Part shown: piece by piece, positions 25,405-35,688 of the stretch
Layout of the letters: each line of letters starts with the position of its first letter
Position numbering within the stretch: the first letter of the stretch is position 1
Assembly: GCA_016779125.1 (NCBI GenBank)
Contig: JADHOF010000005.1
Span: 1 to 40,590 of the forward strand
From: Verrucomicrobiia bacterium
GTDB lineage: Bacteria; Verrucomicrobiota; Verrucomicrobiia; Limisphaerales; JAYPXF01
DNA: 40,590 bases
Direction of reading: 5' to 3'
The notes under the pieces: generated by a model
Told to the model about the DNA's origin: nothing
The model's database searches: none
Seen by the model: the letters and a program-made list of their open reading frames with translations, nothing else
Position numbers and translations under genes: made by a program

Positions 25405-26154
25405 ATGGCCGGACATAGCAAGTGGGCTAACATCAAACATCGCAAAGGTGCAGCCGACGCGAAACGGGGCAAGGTATTCGCCAAGCTCAGCCGCGAGGTC
25501 ACCATCGCGGCGAAGCTCGGCGGGGCCGATCCCGACTTGAATCCGCGCCTGCGGCTCATCCTCCTCAAATGCCGGGGGGCCAGCATGCCGAAGGACAACA
25601 TCGACCGCGCCATCGCGAAGGGCACGGGAGCGGGTGCGGACGGGGCAAACTTCGAAGACCTGACCTATGAGATCTTCGGGCCCGGCGGCGTCGCCATCCT
25701 TGCCGAAATCAGCACCGACAATCGCAATCGGACCGCTTCCGACATCCGCAGCTACGTGACGAAGTCCGGCGGCAATCTCGCGACCGCCGGCGCGGTGACG
25801 CGGCTGTTCCAGAAAAAGGGCCAGATTGTCGTCGCACGGGAAAACGCCGCTGAGGACGACCTGATGGAACTGGCGCTGGAGTCGGGCGCGGAGGATTTTC
25901 GGAGCGAGCCCGAAGGATTCACCATCATCACCGGGCCGGACGAGTTCGAGGGCGTGCTCAAGGCGATCGAGGAAAAGGAAATCGAGACGGAGCTGGCCGA
26001 GATTTCGCAGATTCCCGATCTGACCGCCCCGGTGGACGAGGCCACCGCCAAGTCCCTCTCCATCCTGCTGGAGAAGATCGAGGATCATGACGACGTCAGC
26101 GCGATCTATCACAACGCCGAGTTCCCGGAGTCCGAAGGCGGGGACGAGGACTAA
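25405..26154 (+). CDS. yebC: YebC/PmpR-family protein
   Basis: MAGHSKWANIKHRKGAADAKRGKVFAKLSREVTIAAKLGGADPDLNPRLRLILLKCRGASMPKDNIDRAIAKGTG. Confidence 0.98.
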   Translation: MAGHSKWANIKHRKGAADAKRGKVFAKLSREVTIAAKLGGADPDLNPRLRLILLKCRGASMPKDNIDRAIAKGTGAGADGANFEDLTYEIFGPGGVAILAEISTDNRNRTASDIRSYVTKSGGNLATAGAVTRLFQKKGQIVVARENAAEDDLMELALESGAEDFRSEPEGFTIITGPDEFEGVLKAIEEKEIETELAEISQIPDLTAPVDEATAKSLSILLEKIEDHDDVSAIYHNAEFPESEGGDED

Positions 26155-26209: not shown

Positions 26210-28990
26210 GTGACGGAACCTGAACGGCATAGCACGGGAGCGGAGCGGATTCTGTCCGCGCTGGCCGCCGCGTTGGTTGGTCGGCCGCGATGGTTCTTCT
26301 ACCCGCAGATGCTGCTGTTTCTCGGCTGCGTCTGTTTTACCGCCTCCAAGCTGGGATTCACCACCAGCCGGAACGATCTGGTCAGTTCGGAAAAACGTTA
26401 CCACCAGAATTTTCTCAACTTTCGCAAGGAGTTTCCCGTCGAGGACGATCTGGTGATCCTCGTCGAGAGCGACGACACGGAAAAGAACCGCCAGTTTGTC
26501 GAGCGTTTGGGCGCGAAGCTGGAGGCCGAGCCGGAGTTGTTCACGAATCCGTTCTACCGGGCTGATTTCAAGATGCTCGGGGACAAGGCGCTGTTCTTCC
26601 TGAAGCAGGACGAACTGGCCGCGTTTCGGGAGCAGCTGACCGCCTTCGAGCCCTTCGTCAGCAAATTCTCGCGGGCGACCAACTTCATATCTCTTTTTCA
26701 GCTGATCAACACGGAGTTCCGCCTTGCGGAGCACAAGCCACAGCAGGAGGTCGAGCAATTGATCGGATCGCTGCCCGCGTTGCGACGAATCGTCGAGCAG
26801 GCGGACGCCGCACTCCACAGGCCGGGCCCGCCGCCGAGTCCGGGCATTGCGGCGCTGTTTGGCGGGGAGGAAGCGCAGGCCAAGCTCTACATCACCTTTG
26901 ATTCCGGACGCATGTATCTCGCGACCGTTCAGGTCGCGAACGGCGACGTGGAGGCGCGGGCGGTGCGTCGTCTGGAAGAACTGGTGAGCGAGATCCGCGA
27001 CGAGGTCCCGGGCCTGAGCGTGGGCGTGACCGGCGAGCTGATTTTGGAGTTGGACGAGATGCTTCAATCACAACGAGATACGATCACGGCCTCGCTGATC
27101 GCCCTGGTGTTTGTGGGGATCATCTTCGTCTACGGATATCAGGAGACGGGCCGGCCGGTGAAGGCGACGGCCTGTCTGTTGGTGGGTCTCGGCTATACGA
27201 TGGGTTACACCACGCTGGTAGTCGGACACCTGAACATTCTCACGATCACCTTCGCTCCGATGCAGATCGGGCTCGCGATCGATTTCGGCGTGCATCTGAT
27301 CACACGATACGAAGAGGAACTGCGTCTCGGCAGGAGCCGACAGGAAGCGGTCCGGCTTTCGCTCGTGAACACCGGACAGGGGATCTTCACGGGCGCGCTG
27401 ACGACGGCGGCGGCGTTCTTCGCGATGGGATTGACGGAATTCGACGGCATTCGCGAGATGGGCATCATTGCCGGCGGCGGCCTGTTGCTCAGTCTCGTGC
27501 CGATGATGACCTTGTTGCCAATCCTGTTGCTGCGCGGTCGGCAGAACGAGATCGACGCCGAACAGAGCCGGAACAATTCGGCCCGACGGGAACGTTGGGA
27601 GCAGGCGTGGCTGTCGCGGCCGCGAACGGTGATTGTGGCCGCTGTGGTCTTGTGCGGCCTATGTGTCTCCCGCTTCGACCGTGTCTTCTTCGACTACAAC
27701 CTGCTGCACATGCAGTCCCATGATCTGCCCGCCGTCATCTACGAGGAGAAGCTGATCAAATCGGCCGGCAACTCTGTTCTGTTCGGTGCCGTGGTGGCGG
27801 ATTCCGTCGAAGAGGCGACTGAACTTGAGGCGCGGATTCGCCAGCTGCCCTCCGTCGCGGACGTACGGTCGATGGCCTCGTATCTGGCTGAAAACTCAGG
27901 GCCGAAGCTGGCGTTGATCCGCGAGATTCGCGATCTCGCGGCGAAGCTGGAATTCGCGCAGATCGACGGGCAACCCGTTTCTCCCCCGGAGGTAAGCCAG
28001 GTGATGTACTCCTTTCAGGGATACATCGGGGCGGCTTCCAGGGCGGTTCGCGAGTCGGATGGCGAAAGCCGCCTGTTTTTTGAAATTCAAAGTCTGTGGG
28101 ACGCGGTGCAAACCTTGCGTCGCTCGCTCAACGCCCTGCCGGAGGAGAAGATTTCGGCCCAACTGGCCGCTTTTCAGCGCGCGTTCTTGTCGGATCTGCA
28201 CGAAACCTTCGGTGTGTTGAAGCGGCAGCGAATCGACGGCGGTCTGACCGTGGCGGATCTGCCGAACTCGCTGCGCCAGCGCTTCGTCGGCGTCAATGGC
28301 AAGATGTTGCTCCAGGTCTTCCCGAAGGACGACGTCTGGGAAAAGGCAAATCAGGCGAAGTTCGTTGCGGAGCTGCGCGGCATTGATCCGGACGTGACCG
28401 GAACCCCCGTGCAAATGCTGGAATATACGACCTTGCTGAAGGACAGCTACGTCGAGGCGTCCTGGTATGCTCTCGGCGCCACGTCATTGATGGTGCTCTT
28501 TCATTTCCGCTCGCTTGTCTGCATGGGACTTTCGCTCCTGCCGGTTGTCATTGGAACACTCTGGCTGCTGGGCTTCATGGCCTGGTTTGGCATTCCTTTT
28601 AATCCGGCGAATATCATGACTTTGCCGCTGGTTGCGGGAATAGGAGTGACCAGCGGGATTCATATCCTGAATCGGTTTCGGGAAGACCAAAACCCGTCCC
28701 TGTTATCGAACAGCACCGGCAAGGCGGTTCTGGTGTCGGGTCTGACCACGATCGCGGGATTCGGGAGCCTCACGGTCGCGGAACATCAGGGAATCGAGAG
28801 TTTGGGATATGTGATGTCAATCGGAACAGCCACCTGCATGATTGCCGCGCTCACTTTGTTGCCGGCAGTGATCGGAATGTTGAATCGGATGGGTTGGAAG
28901 AATGGGCACGAAAAAACCCAGCGACGAGATATGCACCCTTCGTCGCTGGGCTGTGAGGAACCGAGGCCAACTAAAACCTCAATCAACTAA
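26210..28990 (+). CDS. RND/MMPL-superfamily transporter, HpnN-like
   Basis: 926 aa, duplicated TM blocks; LNILTITFAPMQIGLAIDFGVHLITRYEEELRLGRSRQEAV and FNPANIMTLPLVAGIGVTSGIHILNRFRED resemble hopanoid-associated RND proteins. GTG start. Confidence 0.88.
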   Translation: MTEPERHSTGAERILSALAAALVGRPRWFFYPQMLLFLGCVCFTASKLGFTTSRNDLVSSEKRYHQNFLNFRKEFPVEDDLVILVESDDTEKNRQFVERLGAKLEAEPELFTNPFYRADFKMLGDKALFFLKQDELAAFREQLTAFEPFVSKFSRATNFISLFQLINTEFRLAEHKPQQEVEQLIGSLPALRRIVEQADAALHRPGPPPSPGIAALFGGEEAQAKLYITFDSGRMYLATVQVANGDVEARAVRRLEELVSEIRDEVPGLSVGVTGELILELDEMLQSQRDTITASLIALVFVGIIFVYGYQETGRPVKATACLLVGLGYTMGYTTLVVGHLNILTITFAPMQIGLAIDFGVHLITRYEEELRLGRSRQEAVRLSLVNTGQGIFTGALTTAAAFFAMGLTEFDGIREMGIIAGGGLLLSLVPMMTLLPILLLRGRQNEIDAEQSRNNSARRERWEQAWLSRPRTVIVAAVVLCGLCVSRFDRVFFDYNLLHMQSHDLPAVIYEEKLIKSAGNSVLFGAVVADSVEEATELEARIRQLPSVADVRSMASYLAENSGPKLALIREIRDLAAKLEFAQIDGQPVSPPEVSQVMYSFQGYIGAASRAVRESDGESRLFFEIQSLWDAVQTLRRSLNALPEEKISAQLAAFQRAFLSDLHETFGVLKRQRIDGGLTVADLPNSLRQRFVGVNGKMLLQVFPKDDVWEKANQAKFVAELRGIDPDVTGTPVQMLEYTTLLKDSYVEASWYALGATSLMVLFHFRSLVCMGLSLLPVVIGTLWLLGFMAWFGIPFNPANIMTLPLVAGIGVTSGIHILNRFREDQNPSLLSNSTGKAVLVSGLTTIAGFGSLTVAEHQGIESLGYVMSIGTATCMIAALTLLPAVIGMLNRMGWKNGHEKTQRRDMHPSSLGCEEPRPTKTSIN
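28917..28950 (-). terminator. Minus-strand intrinsic terminator inside the 3' end of the RND CDS
   Basis: cccagcgacga (28917-28927) / tcgtcgctggg (28940-28950): perfect 11-bp stem, 12-nt loop. Preceding A6 (28911-28916) becomes a U6 tail on the minus strand; no T tract on the plus strand. Confidence 0.6.
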
Positions 28991-29136
28991 CGACGGACGA
29001 TAGGACTCGATCGATGAATGTCAATCCAATAAGTATCAAGATACGGCCAATACCTGATCGTTTAGTATTCGATAACGTTATAGTTGCCCGAAGTTTTCAT
29101 TCCTTTTCGCTCAACTGAAGGCAAGCATCACACACG

Positions 29137-30684
29137 ATGGCAGGAACAGGTGAATTTCAGGTTGTTGGACGGGTAAAAGCCATTTTTTGGGCTGTATTGG
29201 TGGTTTTTTTCCTCCAATTCGATTTCTGCGCGAAAGGGGCTGAAGTTACGGCCGGTCCGCTGGTTCATGATTTCCCCCTGACTTTGGAGTCTGGATCGCG
29301 TCGCGAGGCAGCGGGGCCGTTCTTCTACCGTCAGACGGTCGGCACCCGATCGACCTTGGCCGTTCCGCCGCTGTTCTCATGGCTCAACGATCCGGTCCTC
29401 GAATACCAGGAGTTCGACCTCCTGTATCCCTTGCTGACCTATGATCGCTTCGGATTGGAGAGCCGCGTTCAATTGCTTCAGATGCTGAGTCTGTCGGGCT
29501 CCTCCGATCAGGATTCGGACGTCAGGAGCAAATTCACGATCTTCCCGTTCTATTTTCAGCAGCGTTCGACAAATTCGGCGAAGAACTACACGGCCTTGTT
29601 CCCCTTCTACGGCACTCTGCGGAACCGGATTCTGCGGGACGAAATCTCGTTTGTGTTGTTCCCGATGTATTCCAAGACCCGCAAGCGGGACGTCGTGACC
29701 CGCAACTACCTCTATCCCTTCTTTCATCTTCGTGAGGGAAGCGCGTTGAGGGGTTGGCAGTTCTGGCCTCTGGTTGGGCGTGAAAGCCGCGAGACTCACA
29801 CGGTAACAAACCGCTTCGGCACCGAGGATCTGGTGCTCGGTGAACGCACGGATTTCGTGCTTTGGCCTTTCTTTCTCAAGCACGACAGCGGGATCGGCGG
29901 CACGAACGAAGTCCACGAGACATCGTTTCTGCCGTTCGCCAGCTTCACGCGGTCTCCCGCCCGGGACTCGTCCTCGGTGATCTGGCCCTTTTTCCGCTAC
30001 ACCGATGATCGGGAAAAAAGCTATCGGGAATGGGGATTCCCTTGGCCGCTATGGGGAATCGCGCGCGGCGAGGGTAAACAGATGAACCGCCTTTGGCCGC
30101 TCTTCAGCAAGGCCACAAACGGCGAGCTGACCAGCCAGTGGTATCTCTGGCCTTTCTGGCGGCGGGATTCAATCGATGTGCCTCCGCTGCAACGCCAGCG
30201 GACAAGGCTCTTGTTTTTCCTCTACAACGACCTTGTTGAACGAAGCACTGTGACCGGCAGGGAGATGCATCGGCGCGATCTCTGGCCGTTGTTCCACTAC
30301 CGAAAACAAACGGACGGCCGAGAACGCCTCCAGGTTTTGGCCTTGTTGGAACCGCTCCTTCCGAACAACAAGAGCATCGAACGAAACTGGTCGCCTCTGT
30401 GGTCGATATGGCGTTCCGAAAAAGACCCGTCGAACAATCGTCGCAGTGATTCCTTTTTGTGGAATTTGTGGCGGCGTGAAGTCTCCGAGGAAGGCCGGTC
30501 GAACAGTTATTTCTTCGGTCTGCTAAGCAATCGAAAAACGGCTGACGCTACCCGATGGTCGTGGTTTGATCCTCTCCAGGAAGGCTCGGAGGCGAAAGCG
30601 GAAGCGGCGCCGATCTCGATCTGGAAGATTGATCCGATTCGCTTGCGTCCCTCGGGTATTGAGACTTCTGTTGTCGGCGGTTGA
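29137..30684 (+). CDS. Secreted protein with ~17-22-aa aromatic-Pro repeats, function unknown
   Basis: 515 aa; signal/TM-like N-terminus AIFWAVLVVFFLQFDFCAKGAE; repeated motif copies LYPLL, IFPFY, LFPFY, LFPMY, LYPFF, FWPLV, LWPFF, FLPFA, IWPFF, PWPLW, LWPLF, LWPFW, LWPLF. Confidence 0.85.
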   Translation: MAGTGEFQVVGRVKAIFWAVLVVFFLQFDFCAKGAEVTAGPLVHDFPLTLESGSRREAAGPFFYRQTVGTRSTLAVPPLFSWLNDPVLEYQEFDLLYPLLTYDRFGLESRVQLLQMLSLSGSSDQDSDVRSKFTIFPFYFQQRSTNSAKNYTALFPFYGTLRNRILRDEISFVLFPMYSKTRKRDVVTRNYLYPFFHLREGSALRGWQFWPLVGRESRETHTVTNRFGTEDLVLGERTDFVLWPFFLKHDSGIGGTNEVHETSFLPFASFTRSPARDSSSVIWPFFRYTDDREKSYREWGFPWPLWGIARGEGKQMNRLWPLFSKATNGELTSQWYLWPFWRRDSIDVPPLQRQRTRLLFFLYNDLVERSTVTGREMHRRDLWPLFHYRKQTDGRERLQVLALLEPLLPNNKSIERNWSPLWSIWRSEKDPSNNRRSDSFLWNLWRREVSEEGRSNSYFFGLLSNRKTADATRWSWFDPLQEGSEAKAEAAPISIWKIDPIRLRPSGIETSVVGG

Positions 30685-30693
30685 AGCAAAGAC

Positions 30694-31440
30694 ATGTTTC
30701 GTGACATTGGACAATTGGCGATTCTGGCCTGGCGGACCCTCCGGTCTCTGCCGCTCATATTCCGTCACTATCGCAAGCTGATCGACCAGCTCTTCGAAAT
30801 CGGGAACGCAAGCCTGTTGATGTCATGCATTCTGGCCGTTTTCATCGGCGGCGTGCTGGCCCTGCAGACAGGCCCGGTGATGGTGGAGCAGGGCCTGAAC
30901 AGCGTCGTTGGCGCTGTCGTGGGACTCTCGGTCTGCAAGGAGCTCGCCCCCGTGATGATCGCCGTGCTGATCGCAGGCCGGATCGGCTCCGCGATGGCCG
31001 CCGAGATCGGCTCGATGGCTGTCTATCAGGAGATCGACGCCTTGCGTACGATGAACATCAACCCGATCCACTATCTGGTGCTGCCCCGGGTTCTGGCCGT
31101 CTGCATCGCGCTCCCCTGCCTTGTGGTTTTCGCCGACCTGATCGGATGGGTGGGCGGCGCGCTGGTGTGCATGAGCAATCCGAAGATCGGCATCCCCTGG
31201 CAGGCCTACTTCAACGACCTGTCCAAGGTTGTCGACACCCTGGACGTGCTGAACGGCCTGATCAAAAGCCTGCTGTTCGCGGCGATCATCGGCCTGGTCG
31301 GATGCCACCAGGGGCTCGCCACAATCGGAGGACCCCGCGGCATCGGCCGCTCCGTGACCAAGTCCGTCGTGAACGCGATCGTGCTCATTCTGATCACCGA
31401 CTACTTTATCACCCGCCTGCTGCTGACTCTGGATCTCTGA
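30694..31440 (+). CDS. mlaE: MlaE-family ABC transporter permease
   Basis: ILAVFIGGVLALQTG; KELAPVMIAVLIAGRIGSAMAAEIGSMAVYQEIDALRTMNINPIHYLVLPRVLA. Confidence 0.96.
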   Translation: MFRDIGQLAILAWRTLRSLPLIFRHYRKLIDQLFEIGNASLLMSCILAVFIGGVLALQTGPVMVEQGLNSVVGAVVGLSVCKELAPVMIAVLIAGRIGSAMAAEIGSMAVYQEIDALRTMNINPIHYLVLPRVLAVCIALPCLVVFADLIGWVGGALVCMSNPKIGIPWQAYFNDLSKVVDTLDVLNGLIKSLLFAAIIGLVGCHQGLATIGGPRGIGRSVTKSVVNAIVLILITDYFITRLLLTLDL

Positions 31441-31443
31441 ACG

Positions 31444-32220
31444 ATGAACGAATCCTGCACGGTTGAAAGCGGTCGCGTCTGCGTGGAGGTAAGCGGACTT
31501 CGCAAGAGTTTCGGCACCAGCGAAATCCTCAAGGGCATCGACTTCGGAATTCGATGCGGCGAGATCTTCGTCATCATGGGCCCCAGTGGCAGCGGCAAGA
31601 GCGTGTTGCTGAAACACCTGATCGGGCTTGAACGTCCGACGGCCGGCTCGGTGCGCATTGACGGCCACGAGATTGATTCCCCCGAACTGCTCAGCAAGTA
31701 CCGCATCGCAATGGTGTTCCAGTCCGGCGCGCTGCTCAGCTCCCTGTCCGTGGGCGAAAACGTCGGGCTTTACCTCCGCGAACACCGCATCCATCCACCG
31801 GCGGAAATCAACCGGATCGTCCGCGAGAAGCTCGCCATCGTCGGCTTGGCCGGCTCGGAGGAAAAGATGCCCACGGAGCTTTCCGGCGGCATGAAGAAGC
31901 GGGTTGCGATCGCGCGGGCCTTGGTCATGGATCCCCAACTGATCCTCTACGACGAACCGACCAGTGAGCTGGACCCGCTGATCTCCGTCACGATCGGGCA
32001 GGAGATTGTCAAGATGCGCGAGCGGACCCACGCAACCTCCATCGTGGTCACCCACGATCGCGATCTGGGCTTCGGCATTGCCGACCGGATCGCGCTGATC
32101 AGCGGCGGCCGAATCCTGACCTTGGGCACGCCGGACGAGGTCCGCGCATGTGACAACCCGGAAGTTCGGACCTTTCTCAACGCCAGTTACCAACCTCCCG
32201 AAGAAGCAGATAGAACATGA
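31444..32220 (+). CDS. mlaF: MlaF-family ABC transporter ATP-binding protein
   Basis: Walker A MGPSGSGKSVLLKHLIGLERPTAGSV; signature ELSGGMKKRVAIARAL; Walker B LILYDEPTSELDPL. Confidence 0.97.
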   Translation: MNESCTVESGRVCVEVSGLRKSFGTSEILKGIDFGIRCGEIFVIMGPSGSGKSVLLKHLIGLERPTAGSVRIDGHEIDSPELLSKYRIAMVFQSGALLSSLSVGENVGLYLREHRIHPPAEINRIVREKLAIVGLAGSEEKMPTELSGGMKKRVAIARALVMDPQLILYDEPTSELDPLISVTIGQEIVKMRERTHATSIVVTHDRDLGFGIADRIALISGGRILTLGTPDEVRACDNPEVRTFLNASYQPPEEADRT

Positions 32221-33272
32221 AGACCTCCCTCGAAACCCGCCTTGGAATATTCTTCGCGCTGACCGCCGTTGCGGCCGTGCTCCTGATCGAACTCTCCGGC
32301 GGTGTCGACGTCTTTCGCAAGGGCTACACGCTGCACGCCGACTTCAAGACGATCGGCCAGCTGAAAGCGGGCGATCCGATCAAGATGGCCGGTGTGCCCA
32401 TCGGCCGCGTGATCGGCTTTGATTTCATCGACGACAAGGTTCGCGTGAGCATGAAGATCGCCGAGGGCCGGAAGGTGAAGACGGACGCGATCGCCCGTAT
32501 CCAATCCGCCGGATTGGTCGGGCAGAACTACGTGGCGCTCAACATCGGCGCGGCGGATTCGCCCGCGTTTGAAGCCGACGGTGTCGTGCAGACGGAGGAA
32601 CTGCCGGACATCAACGCCATCATGAAGAAGCTCGATAACGTCGCCGGCGGAATTGAAAACCTCACAAAAAGTTTCAGCGGCGACTCGATCCAGAACGTGC
32701 TGGGTCCCCTCACCGATTTCATGAAGCAGAACAACCCAAAAATCACCTCCATTCTCGGCGACATGCAGGTGGTCTCCGCAAACCTGCGCGAGGGCAAGGG
32801 TACCATGGGGCGCTTCATCACCGACGAGCGGCTTTACACCGAGGCGGTTGAAACCGTGAAGGGCCTCAACCAGACCGCCGCAGACGCGCGCCTGCTCTTG
32901 ACCGACGCAAAATCCTCCCTGTCCAAGGTCACGGGCACCTTCGACGAGGCCCAATCCATCTTCGGCGACCTCAAGCTCACCTTGCAGGGCGCGCGCCAGA
33001 CCATGGATCGCGTCAACGCGGGCGAGGGCACCATCGGCATGCTGCTGCATGACACCGCTCTTTACACCAACAGCACCGCCGCGATGGCGACCCTTCGGGA
33101 GATCTTCGACAAGATCAATCGGGGCGAGGGCAGCGCGGGCATGCTGGTGAACGATCCCGGTTTCTACGACAACGCCAAGATGACCTTGCAGAAGATCGAC
33201 AAGGCCACGGAAGGTCTGGAGGACACCGGCCCGCTCAGCGTGTTCGGCACCGCGATCAACAGCCTTTTCTGA
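32217..33272 (+). CDS. mlaD: MlaD/MCE-domain substrate-binding protein
   Basis: MKTSLETRLGIFFALTAVAAVLLIEL TM anchor; LHADFKTIGQLKAGDPIKMAGVPIGRVIGFDF MCE domain; C-terminal helical repeats. ATGA overlap with mlaF. Confidence 0.95.
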   Translation: MKTSLETRLGIFFALTAVAAVLLIELSGGVDVFRKGYTLHADFKTIGQLKAGDPIKMAGVPIGRVIGFDFIDDKVRVSMKIAEGRKVKTDAIARIQSAGLVGQNYVALNIGAADSPAFEADGVVQTEELPDINAIMKKLDNVAGGIENLTKSFSGDSIQNVLGPLTDFMKQNNPKITSILGDMQVVSANLREGKGTMGRFITDERLYTEAVETVKGLNQTAADARLLLTDAKSSLSKVTGTFDEAQSIFGDLKLTLQGARQTMDRVNAGEGTIGMLLHDTALYTNSTAAMATLREIFDKINRGEGSAGMLVNDPGFYDNAKMTLQKIDKATEGLEDTGPLSVFGTAINSLF

Positions 33273-34257: not shown

Positions 34258-35583
34258 TCACCGAGGTTCGTGGTCTTTCAGCAATTCGCGCATCTCCGGC
34301 TTTGTCGCGAACAGGATGTCGCGGATGTCGCGCCGCTCCTTTGCGGTGAGGTGGGAGTACCGGTCGGTCGGTGTGGAGTCCCGGAGTATCGTTTCCAGCT
34401 CCGCATAGAGCGCGCGCTTCAGCATCACGGGCAACAGGTCGAAGGCTTCCGAGTAGATCATGTAGCTGCAGCGATACCGAAAGAGCCTTGTCTGAAGATC
34501 GAAGTCCTTGAGGCTCCGATCCAGAGTGTCGGGTTTTCGATTCGCGAGAAACGCCGCTTCGAAGCGGCCTGCTCCGCGAATGCCGCCGTCGGGCAGTTGA
34601 ATCTCATCCCGGAAAAGAAGGTATTCGAGAATCCGGTCGCGCTCGCCGTTCAGCACTGTCAGCAAGGTTCCCGTCGGCTCCGACGGCGCGGGTTCGCCAA
34701 TACGCTTGTAGAAGTCCTCCTGATGCGCCTGCCACTTGAGGATTCGCAATTTCGCCCGGGAGAGCCGGCTGTGCATTTCGCACTGATGTTCGAGCACCAT
34801 CAGCGCGACGATGTCGCTGTCGGGCCGCAGGTGCTTCGATGTGTCAAAGCGGCCGCCCAGATCCGTTGCGTTGGCGCCCGCCTCGGTGTCCAGCACGGCG
34901 GCGGTTCCGTCCCATGTCGCGAACTCGTTCCCGAGGTGTCGGGCGGCACCGTGCTGGCCGGTGACATACCACCCTCCCCAGCGCTGCTCGATGGGGCTGT
35001 CCTGTCGCGTCACATGGCTGCCGCCCTGCCAGAGTACGTTGCCATCCGACTCCGGATACACGGAGCGGACCAGCACGCCCGGCCAGTCGCCCGTGCGCGA
35101 TCCCCCGTGACACGAGAGGCAATCGCGGTTGCGGGCAATTCGTTTCTTGTAGGGATCGATCTCGTAGAACACGAGACCCAGCCGGGGATCGTTGAGTGCG
35201 AGTTCATAAATGCCACCCGGCACCCAGCCGAAATAGGCATCGTCCGAGAAGTAGATCGCGCGGGGATTGCGCGGTTCGATTCGGGAATTCTGCAGGCTCG
35301 TCTTGCTGAACACCAAGGTCTGCGAATCGATCGGAATTTCAAACGCGGCAAGAAAGGCTCTCAACGCCGCTTTGCCGTAATCGCCGACACCCTCCAGCCG
35401 CCCCTCGAACCAGAGATTCTGAAGGCGGTCGGCGCGGTTGCTGGTGATTGTCGCGCTGTAGTGGATCGGATCTTCCTCGAATTCCGGAACCCTTTGCGCC
35501 GAGGCGGTCCCGCCCGATCGCAAAACCACGCCCATCGCCATCATCAGGAGGCAGACCTTGCGGGTGCTTGGGCGGCTTTTCAT
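34258..35583 (-). CDS. Secreted c-type-cytochrome-motif protein, function unknown
   Basis: Signal-like MKSRPSTRKVCLLMMAMGVVLRSGGTASA; single CLSCHGG heme motif in NRDCLSCHGGSRTGDWPGVLVRSVYPESDGNVL. Confidence 0.78.
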   Translation of the reverse strand: MKSRPSTRKVCLLMMAMGVVLRSGGTASAQRVPEFEEDPIHYSATITSNRADRLQNLWFEGRLEGVGDYGKAALRAFLAAFEIPIDSQTLVFSKTSLQNSRIEPRNPRAIYFSDDAYFGWVPGGIYELALNDPRLGLVFYEIDPYKKRIARNRDCLSCHGGSRTGDWPGVLVRSVYPESDGNVLWQGGSHVTRQDSPIEQRWGGWYVTGQHGAARHLGNEFATWDGTAAVLDTEAGANATDLGGRFDTSKHLRPDSDIVALMVLEHQCEMHSRLSRAKLRILKWQAHQEDFYKRIGEPAPSEPTGTLLTVLNGERDRILEYLLFRDEIQLPDGGIRGAGRFEAAFLANRKPDTLDRSLKDFDLQTRLFRYRCSYMIYSEAFDLLPVMLKRALYAELETILRDSTPTDRYSHLTAKERRDIRDILFATKPEMRELLKDHEPR

Positions 35584-35688
35584 TTCGCGACGAGCTTGCT
35601 GATCGCCTCCGCGACGGGCACGCCCGATCTTGTCGTTTGCCGGTGCTGCCTTGCCCTCGAGACTTGCGCAGCTGCGCACCGTGACGCC

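Follow-up and report, generated by a model that had tools for sequence, protein, structure and literature searches.

The Mla system of Proteobacteria (MlaFEDB-MlaC-MlaA) relies on a shuttle, MlaC, and on an outer-membrane part, MlaA. Veillonella parvula has a minimal transenvelope MlaEFD system, in which MlaD carries a fused barrel that serves as the outer-membrane part. The 2023 study of that system also reports PVC MlaDs without a C-terminal barrel and asks whether non-homologous proteins replace the missing envelope components (PMC10665443). In PqiABC, the MCE protein PqiB spans the periplasm, and its C-terminus is received by a ring on the outer-membrane side, PqiC (PMC10897342). The DNA analyzed here, referred to as the window, is a stretch of 40,590 nucleotides from a Verrucomicrobiia bacterium (assembly GCA_016779125.1, contig JADHOF010000005.1). 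It encodes a 515-aa repeat protein at 29137-30684, named REP in this work, directly upstream of mlaE, mlaF and mlaD. The best explanation of the data is that rep-mlaE-mlaF-mlaD constitutes a four-gene Mla-type lipid transporter that is old in Verrucomicrobiota. Within it, REP is probably the dedicated periplasmic or outer-membrane partner of a long, barrel-less MlaD and replaces MlaC and MlaA. The literature searched holds no earlier description of the rep-mlaEFD operon.

The first line of evidence is gene linkage. Relatives of REP were found on 14 GTDB contigs, all verrucomicrobial. Among 141 genomes from the class Verrucomicrobiia (hereafter the class), 34 encode the protein, including 21 of the 23 that belong to the order Limisphaerales (the order). 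When the neighbors of the class loci were annotated using BLAST and a REP profile, mlaE-mlaF-mlaD was found directly after REP in 44 of the 47 testable loci, window included; locus L019 stops at a contig edge. A profile of 28 REPs also matches strongly in many genomes from the phylum's other classes, where the same four-gene order is present in 16 of 19 testable loci (20 sampled) and the MlaEs are 33-39% identical to that of the window. Overall, REP lies directly upstream of mlaE-mlaF-mlaD in 60/66 testable loci from several classes of Verrucomicrobiota, a count of loci and not of independent genomes, among which close relatives may be included. In all loci but one, the aligned start of mlaE lies -20 to 198 nt from the stop codon of REP. 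Co-occurrence persists when the genes are unlinked: in two genomes where REP has other neighbors (G013 and that of locus L012), another contig encodes an MlaD that shares 47-49% identity with that of the window. Likewise, in the REP-negative order genomes G062 and G130, a close MlaD of the REP-linked type is missing as well. REP and its MlaD type are thus kept or lost together, which is the behavior of partners and is not expected of a passenger. Because linkage recurs, co-occurrence holds without it, and the operon alternates with mlaC/mlaA operons, the partner reading is well supported at the genomic level. The first-pass annotation, which proposed the 515-aa protein as the missing partner, left it to the gene neighborhoods of homologs to decide, and their linkage to MCE genes does recur.

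The second line of evidence is the alternation with MlaC and MlaA. No candidate for either had been visible in the window, and a family search of the whole source assembly (3.8 Mb, 81% complete) found no match to MlaA or MlaC, so that the absence extends past the window but, at this completeness, without certainty. Canonical mlaA/mlaC genes elsewhere in the genome, which would have offered this mlaEFD other partners, were therefore not found. Nor does any REP locus contain mlaC or mlaA, and the canonical six-part Mla system is accordingly not represented. Among the 141 class genomes, REP is present in 34, MlaC in 18 and MlaA in 21, with zero overlap between REP and MlaC (Fisher p 0.007, uncorrected for shared ancestry). 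All 13 genomes of one family of the class, labeled f26, carry exactly one of the two solutions, namely REP (10 genomes) or MlaA together with MlaC (3 genomes). The MlaC loci of the class are mostly mlaE-F-D-C-A operons; in the f26 loci L099 and L103, mlaC and mlaA are the only mla genes recognized. REP and MlaA are both present in G049 and G116, with the MlaA domain in frames of ~700 residues that adjoin neither MlaC nor mla genes. As a separate observation, three order genomes (loci L110, L111, L112) have an MlaA-family domain in frames of 634-734 aa, again with no MlaC or mla neighbors.

In the window, five open reading frames (ORFs) lie co-directionally on the plus strand and encode an RND protein, REP, MlaE, MlaF and MlaD; the genes, coordinates, directions and spacings reported in the first-pass annotation were confirmed from the ORFs and family models. 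MlaE, MlaF and MlaD, assigned from family models, stand together in one operon, as is characteristic of an Mla-type MCE transporter. REP and mlaE are separated by 9 bp and mlaE and mlaF by 3 bp, while mlaF and mlaD overlap by 4 bp. The features of the operon are the following:

29137-30684, plus strand: REP, predicted secreted all-beta repeat protein, 515 aa (ORF, homologs, AlphaFold2 (AF2) model)
29137-29238, plus strand: hydrophobic N-terminal segment of REP, signal-peptide-like, residues 1-34 (approximate; sequence, homologs)
29257-30576, plus strand: REP repeat region, residues 41-480, built of ~19-residue hairpins whose (W/F/Y)-P tips are invariant
30694-31440, plus strand: mlaE, permease (PF02405 3.5e-71, 239.6 bits; TIGR00056 above cut-off)
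31444-32220, plus strand: mlaF, ABC ATPase (PF00005 6.4e-33), linked to REP and mlaE throughout
32217-33272, plus strand: mlaD, long form, 351 aa, with transmembrane helix, MCE domain, helical extension and no beta-barrel (PF02470 2.5e-16, 60.1 bits; AF2, helical part at low confidence)
33228-33269, plus strand: MlaD C-terminal tail GPLSVFGTAINSLF, a motif common to REP-linked MlaDs

The third line of evidence comes from MlaD itself. Its length is 283-464 aa in REP operons, compared with 151-180 aa in mlaEFDCA operons. The AF2 model of the 351-aa window protein matches the MlaD and Mce1 folds and is informative for the MCE domain only; the part that follows is modeled solely as helices, with a predicted local distance difference test score (pLDDT) <50 from residue 130. 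A fused C-terminal barrel of the Veillonella type is not seen in this low-confidence region. The REP-linked MlaDs end in related hydrophobic tails, with the patterns GPLSVLG..xNxLF in the order, GPITAVGVVANxLF in f26 and SPITTFSSIFFGAF in other classes. The hydrophobic tail pattern is present in 58 of 60 REP-linked MlaDs and a final F or L in 59 of 60, versus none of 34 other MlaDs (16 short and 18 other long) in either case. The motif was defined post hoc from the sequences, and the contrast is independent of its exact form. As each subunit of an MCE hexamer can contribute one strand to closing the far end (Mce1; barrel-less MlaDs, PMC10665443), the tail may, by analogy, form such a crown or bind REP.

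REP is a real, conserved and unannotated protein. Membership of a known family was rejected, as nothing credible emerged from searches of Pfam (all 15 members queried, E up to 1), NCBIfam or PDB sequences; a plasmid search gave no match. Its homologs share 40-53% identity within the order, whereas those from other class families share 23-28%. The N-terminus has a hydrophobic stretch followed in most homologs by A-x-A-like sites, and the protein is predicted to be secreted. A lipoprotein was considered and rejected, given that lipobox-like cysteines occur in few homologs (e.g., L006) and not in most. The core is a run of ~19-residue units with tips recurring every 17-20 residues, and it contains 12 [aromatic/aliphatic]-P-hydrophobic-hydrophobic motifs, against an expectation of 1.9 from 2000 shuffled sequences of equal composition, none of which has more than 8. 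Thirteen tips are invariant across 28 homologs, with the consensus [LV]-[WFY]-P-[LF]-[YF]; charge is absent at positions -2 to +2, and charged residues are many at -7, -6 and +6. In the deep alignment, the invariant residues are nearly all tip prolines and neighboring Gly and Trp. The AF2 model is all-beta (mean pLDDT 78, several stretches >90; predicted TM-score (pTM) 0.56) and comprises 44 strands averaging 6.1 residues (range 4-8), with the W-P-L-F tips in hairpin turns. A Foldseek search with this model returned weak likeness to single-layer beta sheets (OspA, MORN repeats), all with low TM-scores. The working picture, in which secretion, fold and tip position are predictions, is that of a ribbon whose two edges differ, one being hydrophobic and the other polar.

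Two sets of database matches were recorded alongside these results. WP-repeat matches also occur in long frames of up to 1845 aa (L088 and the phylum hits G284, G279, G212 and G251). The majority of these are weak or partial, and no mla genes lie near L088. Such matches suggest a wider family of these repeat proteins. In addition, four REP matches contain one or two in-frame stops (L037 in G096, L025 in G122, L026 in G132, L035 in G127), which are possibly assembly errors, truncated copies, or matches read past the gene.

Two other roles were considered for REP. REP could be a periplasm-spanning lipid slide carrying lipids in parallel with MlaD: about 44 strands in one sheet at 4.8 A each would extend over ~20 nm, near the width of the periplasm, and hydrophobic residues run along one edge. 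This role is unlikely, as the extended shape is uncertain at the pTM obtained and the hydrophobic residues sit at turns, whereas in LptA- or TamB-type proteins they line a groove. Alternatively, REP could be a conventional outer-membrane beta-barrel, corresponding as a separate protein to the barrel that Veillonella MlaD carries in fused form. An all-beta, predicted secreted protein linked to a long MlaD that, like the PVC MlaDs of PMC10665443, has no barrel would suit this role. However, the prediction contains no such barrel. Its strands, the longest of 8 residues, are too short for typical membrane barrel strands, and the tip spacing is too close for a hairpin that crosses the membrane twice. 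Consequently, a classical barrel is disfavored. Furthermore, the hydrophobic residues stand five in a row at turns and do not alternate along strands, and the better-scoring Foldseek matches, low as their TM-scores are, are single-layer sheets. A barrel is thus unlikely.

A third alternative concerns the operon and not the fold. REP could be an envelope protein, e.g., a structural one, that merely shares the operon, and its co-regulation, with MlaEFD and does not act with it. Six testable loci without mlaE beside REP, the WP-repeat relatives in longer proteins without mla genes, and an interaction proposed from genomic evidence all speak in its favor. On the other hand, the joint presence of REP and MlaD when unlinked, their joint absence in G062 and G130, the MlaD length and tail specific to REP operons, and the alternation with mlaC/mlaA make it distinctly unlikely.

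The interpretation of REP as the partner of MlaD has to be weighed against several observations. The six loci without an adjoining mlaE are L007, L012 and L018 in the class and three in other classes. Many verrucomicrobial MlaEFD sets are accompanied by neither REP nor MlaC, and the core may therefore function without either. Strict mutual exclusion of REP and MlaC was rejected: it held in the 141 class genomes and failed phylum-wide, where six genomes of the phylum sample (G180, G208, G247, G260, G269, G294) carry both on different contigs. REP and MlaC are therefore alternatives within an operon and not strictly within a genome. Shared ancestry may also contribute to the class-wide pattern. 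Additionally, the tail motif is post hoc, the extension of MlaD is modeled with low confidence, and the REP model was built from 15 sequences with a modest pTM. Finally, the MlaE phylogeny (98 rows) separates the REP-linked proteins. Those of the class form one clade (100/99), which includes the window MlaE, and those of other classes a separate clade (100/100); a third (100/100) comprises the MlaEs linked to mlaC/A. The two REP-linked clades are not joined with support, and both one old origin with deep divergence and two associations would fit this topology. In the tree, the row labeled 'other' for L001 represents the MlaE of the window itself, in a sequence cut before REP, and L015_REP_4188 represents a paralog within a REP locus. 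Apart from the tree, the same genome was observed to contain another, distant mlaE (30% identity) accompanied by an MCE gene (L002), with no REP detected on its 3.2-kb stretch.

Upstream of REP, the window contains two co-directional genes:

25405-26154, plus strand: YebC gene, preceding the RND gene
26210-28990, plus strand: HpnN-like RND protein (MMPL family), 926 aa, GTG start, optional neighbor (PF03176 1e-42; TIGR03480 551 bits)

The RND protein resembles HpnN but scores below the family cut-off (551 vs 751.85 bits in TIGR03480). Of 29 testable loci from the order, 18 have its gene next to REP, compared with 0/13 in other class families and 0/20 in other classes; it is an optional neighbor of the REP operon, and its reading as an integral part of the locus is not supported. 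A search for squalene-hopene cyclase in the source genome was positive (TIGR01507 676 bits, cut-off 431.1). The enzyme is found in most order members, with or without the RND neighbor, and is common in REP-negative genomes, while 12 REP-positive genomes outside the order gave no match to it. Because REP operons exist without the RND gene and without a detected cyclase, a hopanoid-specific role of REP-mlaEFD is not supported, and a hopanoid-specific machine was rejected as the general reading. A single hopanoid-export machine, in which the HpnN-like protein hands hopanoids to REP and MlaEFD, would account for the RND neighbor and the encoded cyclase but is most improbable, since REP-mlaEFD without RND is the rule outside the order and also applies to 11/29 loci inside it, and the cyclase does not follow REP. 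The term 'export' found no support either, as the direction of transport is unreadable from sequence. Of the initial interpretation, the missing MlaEFD partner is well supported, and the RND and export parts are not.

In the 146-bp gap between the RND gene and REP, neither a terminator-like site nor a sigma70-like promoter was found on the plus strand. At the 3' end of the RND ORF, at 28917-28950 (plus strand), there is a perfect 11-bp inverted repeat, CCCAGCGACGA/TCGTCGCTGGG; an A-run before it makes it terminator-like on the minus strand. Downstream of the operon, a 473-aa ORF at 34258-35679 (minus strand) has a CLSCH haem-binding-like motif and no Pfam or NCBIfam match; it is possibly a c-type cytochrome or a related domain.

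The partner role is thus carried by gene-level evidence: operon conservation, co-occurrence, alternation, the difference in MlaD length and tail, and the repeat pattern. A possible mechanism can be outlined on this basis, in which we infer docking to MlaD, contact with the outer membrane, and phospholipids as the substrate. MlaE and MlaF would form the inner-membrane ABC motor, and the long MlaD an MCE ring whose helical extension reaches into the periplasm. Secreted REP would cap or dock the far end of MlaD, probably via the hydrophobic C-terminal tail, and the row of W-P-L-F hairpin tips on one edge of its beta ribbon would touch the outer membrane. REP would in this way stand in for both shuttle and outer-membrane part, and together with the docked tail it could give lipids a direct path without a shuttle.

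A broader proposal can be made tentatively, with slightly less than even confidence. The undescribed secreted WP-repeat beta family may be the outer-membrane-side subunit of a main Mla system across much of the phylum, docking the hydrophobic tails of long MlaDs, functionally interchangeable with MlaC plus MlaA, and representing a third solution beside the shuttle and the fused barrel. If true, this would be a new way of connecting the two membranes. For the open question of how an MCE transporter reaches the outer membrane when MlaA and MlaC are missing, it provides a named candidate and also predicts a specific contact, through the C-terminal tail of MlaD. The members of one family carrying either rep-mlaEFD or mlaC/mlaA offer a natural comparison.

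Compared with known systems, the locus shows both likenesses and differences. The gene upstream of REP recalls the HpnN/BstA RND lipid transporters, but its product is under the family cut-offs and it adjoins REP in part of one order only. The single-layer antiparallel hairpin sheet predicted for REP resembles MORN-repeat proteins and the OspA sheet in the Foldseek matches; the TM-scores are low, however, and the repeat consensus differs. Membrane binding of MORN repeats is itself disputed (PMC7725318). With the proteobacterial Mla system, the locus shares the core of MlaE permease, MlaF ATPase and MlaD MCE protein. In contrast to it, REP operons have no mlaA, mlaC or recognized mlaB, their MlaD is long, and their first gene encodes an unrelated secreted repeat protein. 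The Veillonella system (PMC10665443) is similar in its long MlaD and in having no MlaA or MlaC; there the outer-membrane part is the fused barrel, whereas here it would be a separate REP beside an MlaD modeled, at low confidence, as barrel-less. PqiC differs from REP in being a small lipoprotein that assembles into an octameric ring, whereas REP is a beta repeat protein of 515 aa in which a lipobox is not consistently present; no Pfam relation between the two was found. Nevertheless, PqiABC provides the closest working model for REP and the long MlaD, as an MCE C-terminus is met there by a dedicated outer-membrane-side partner.

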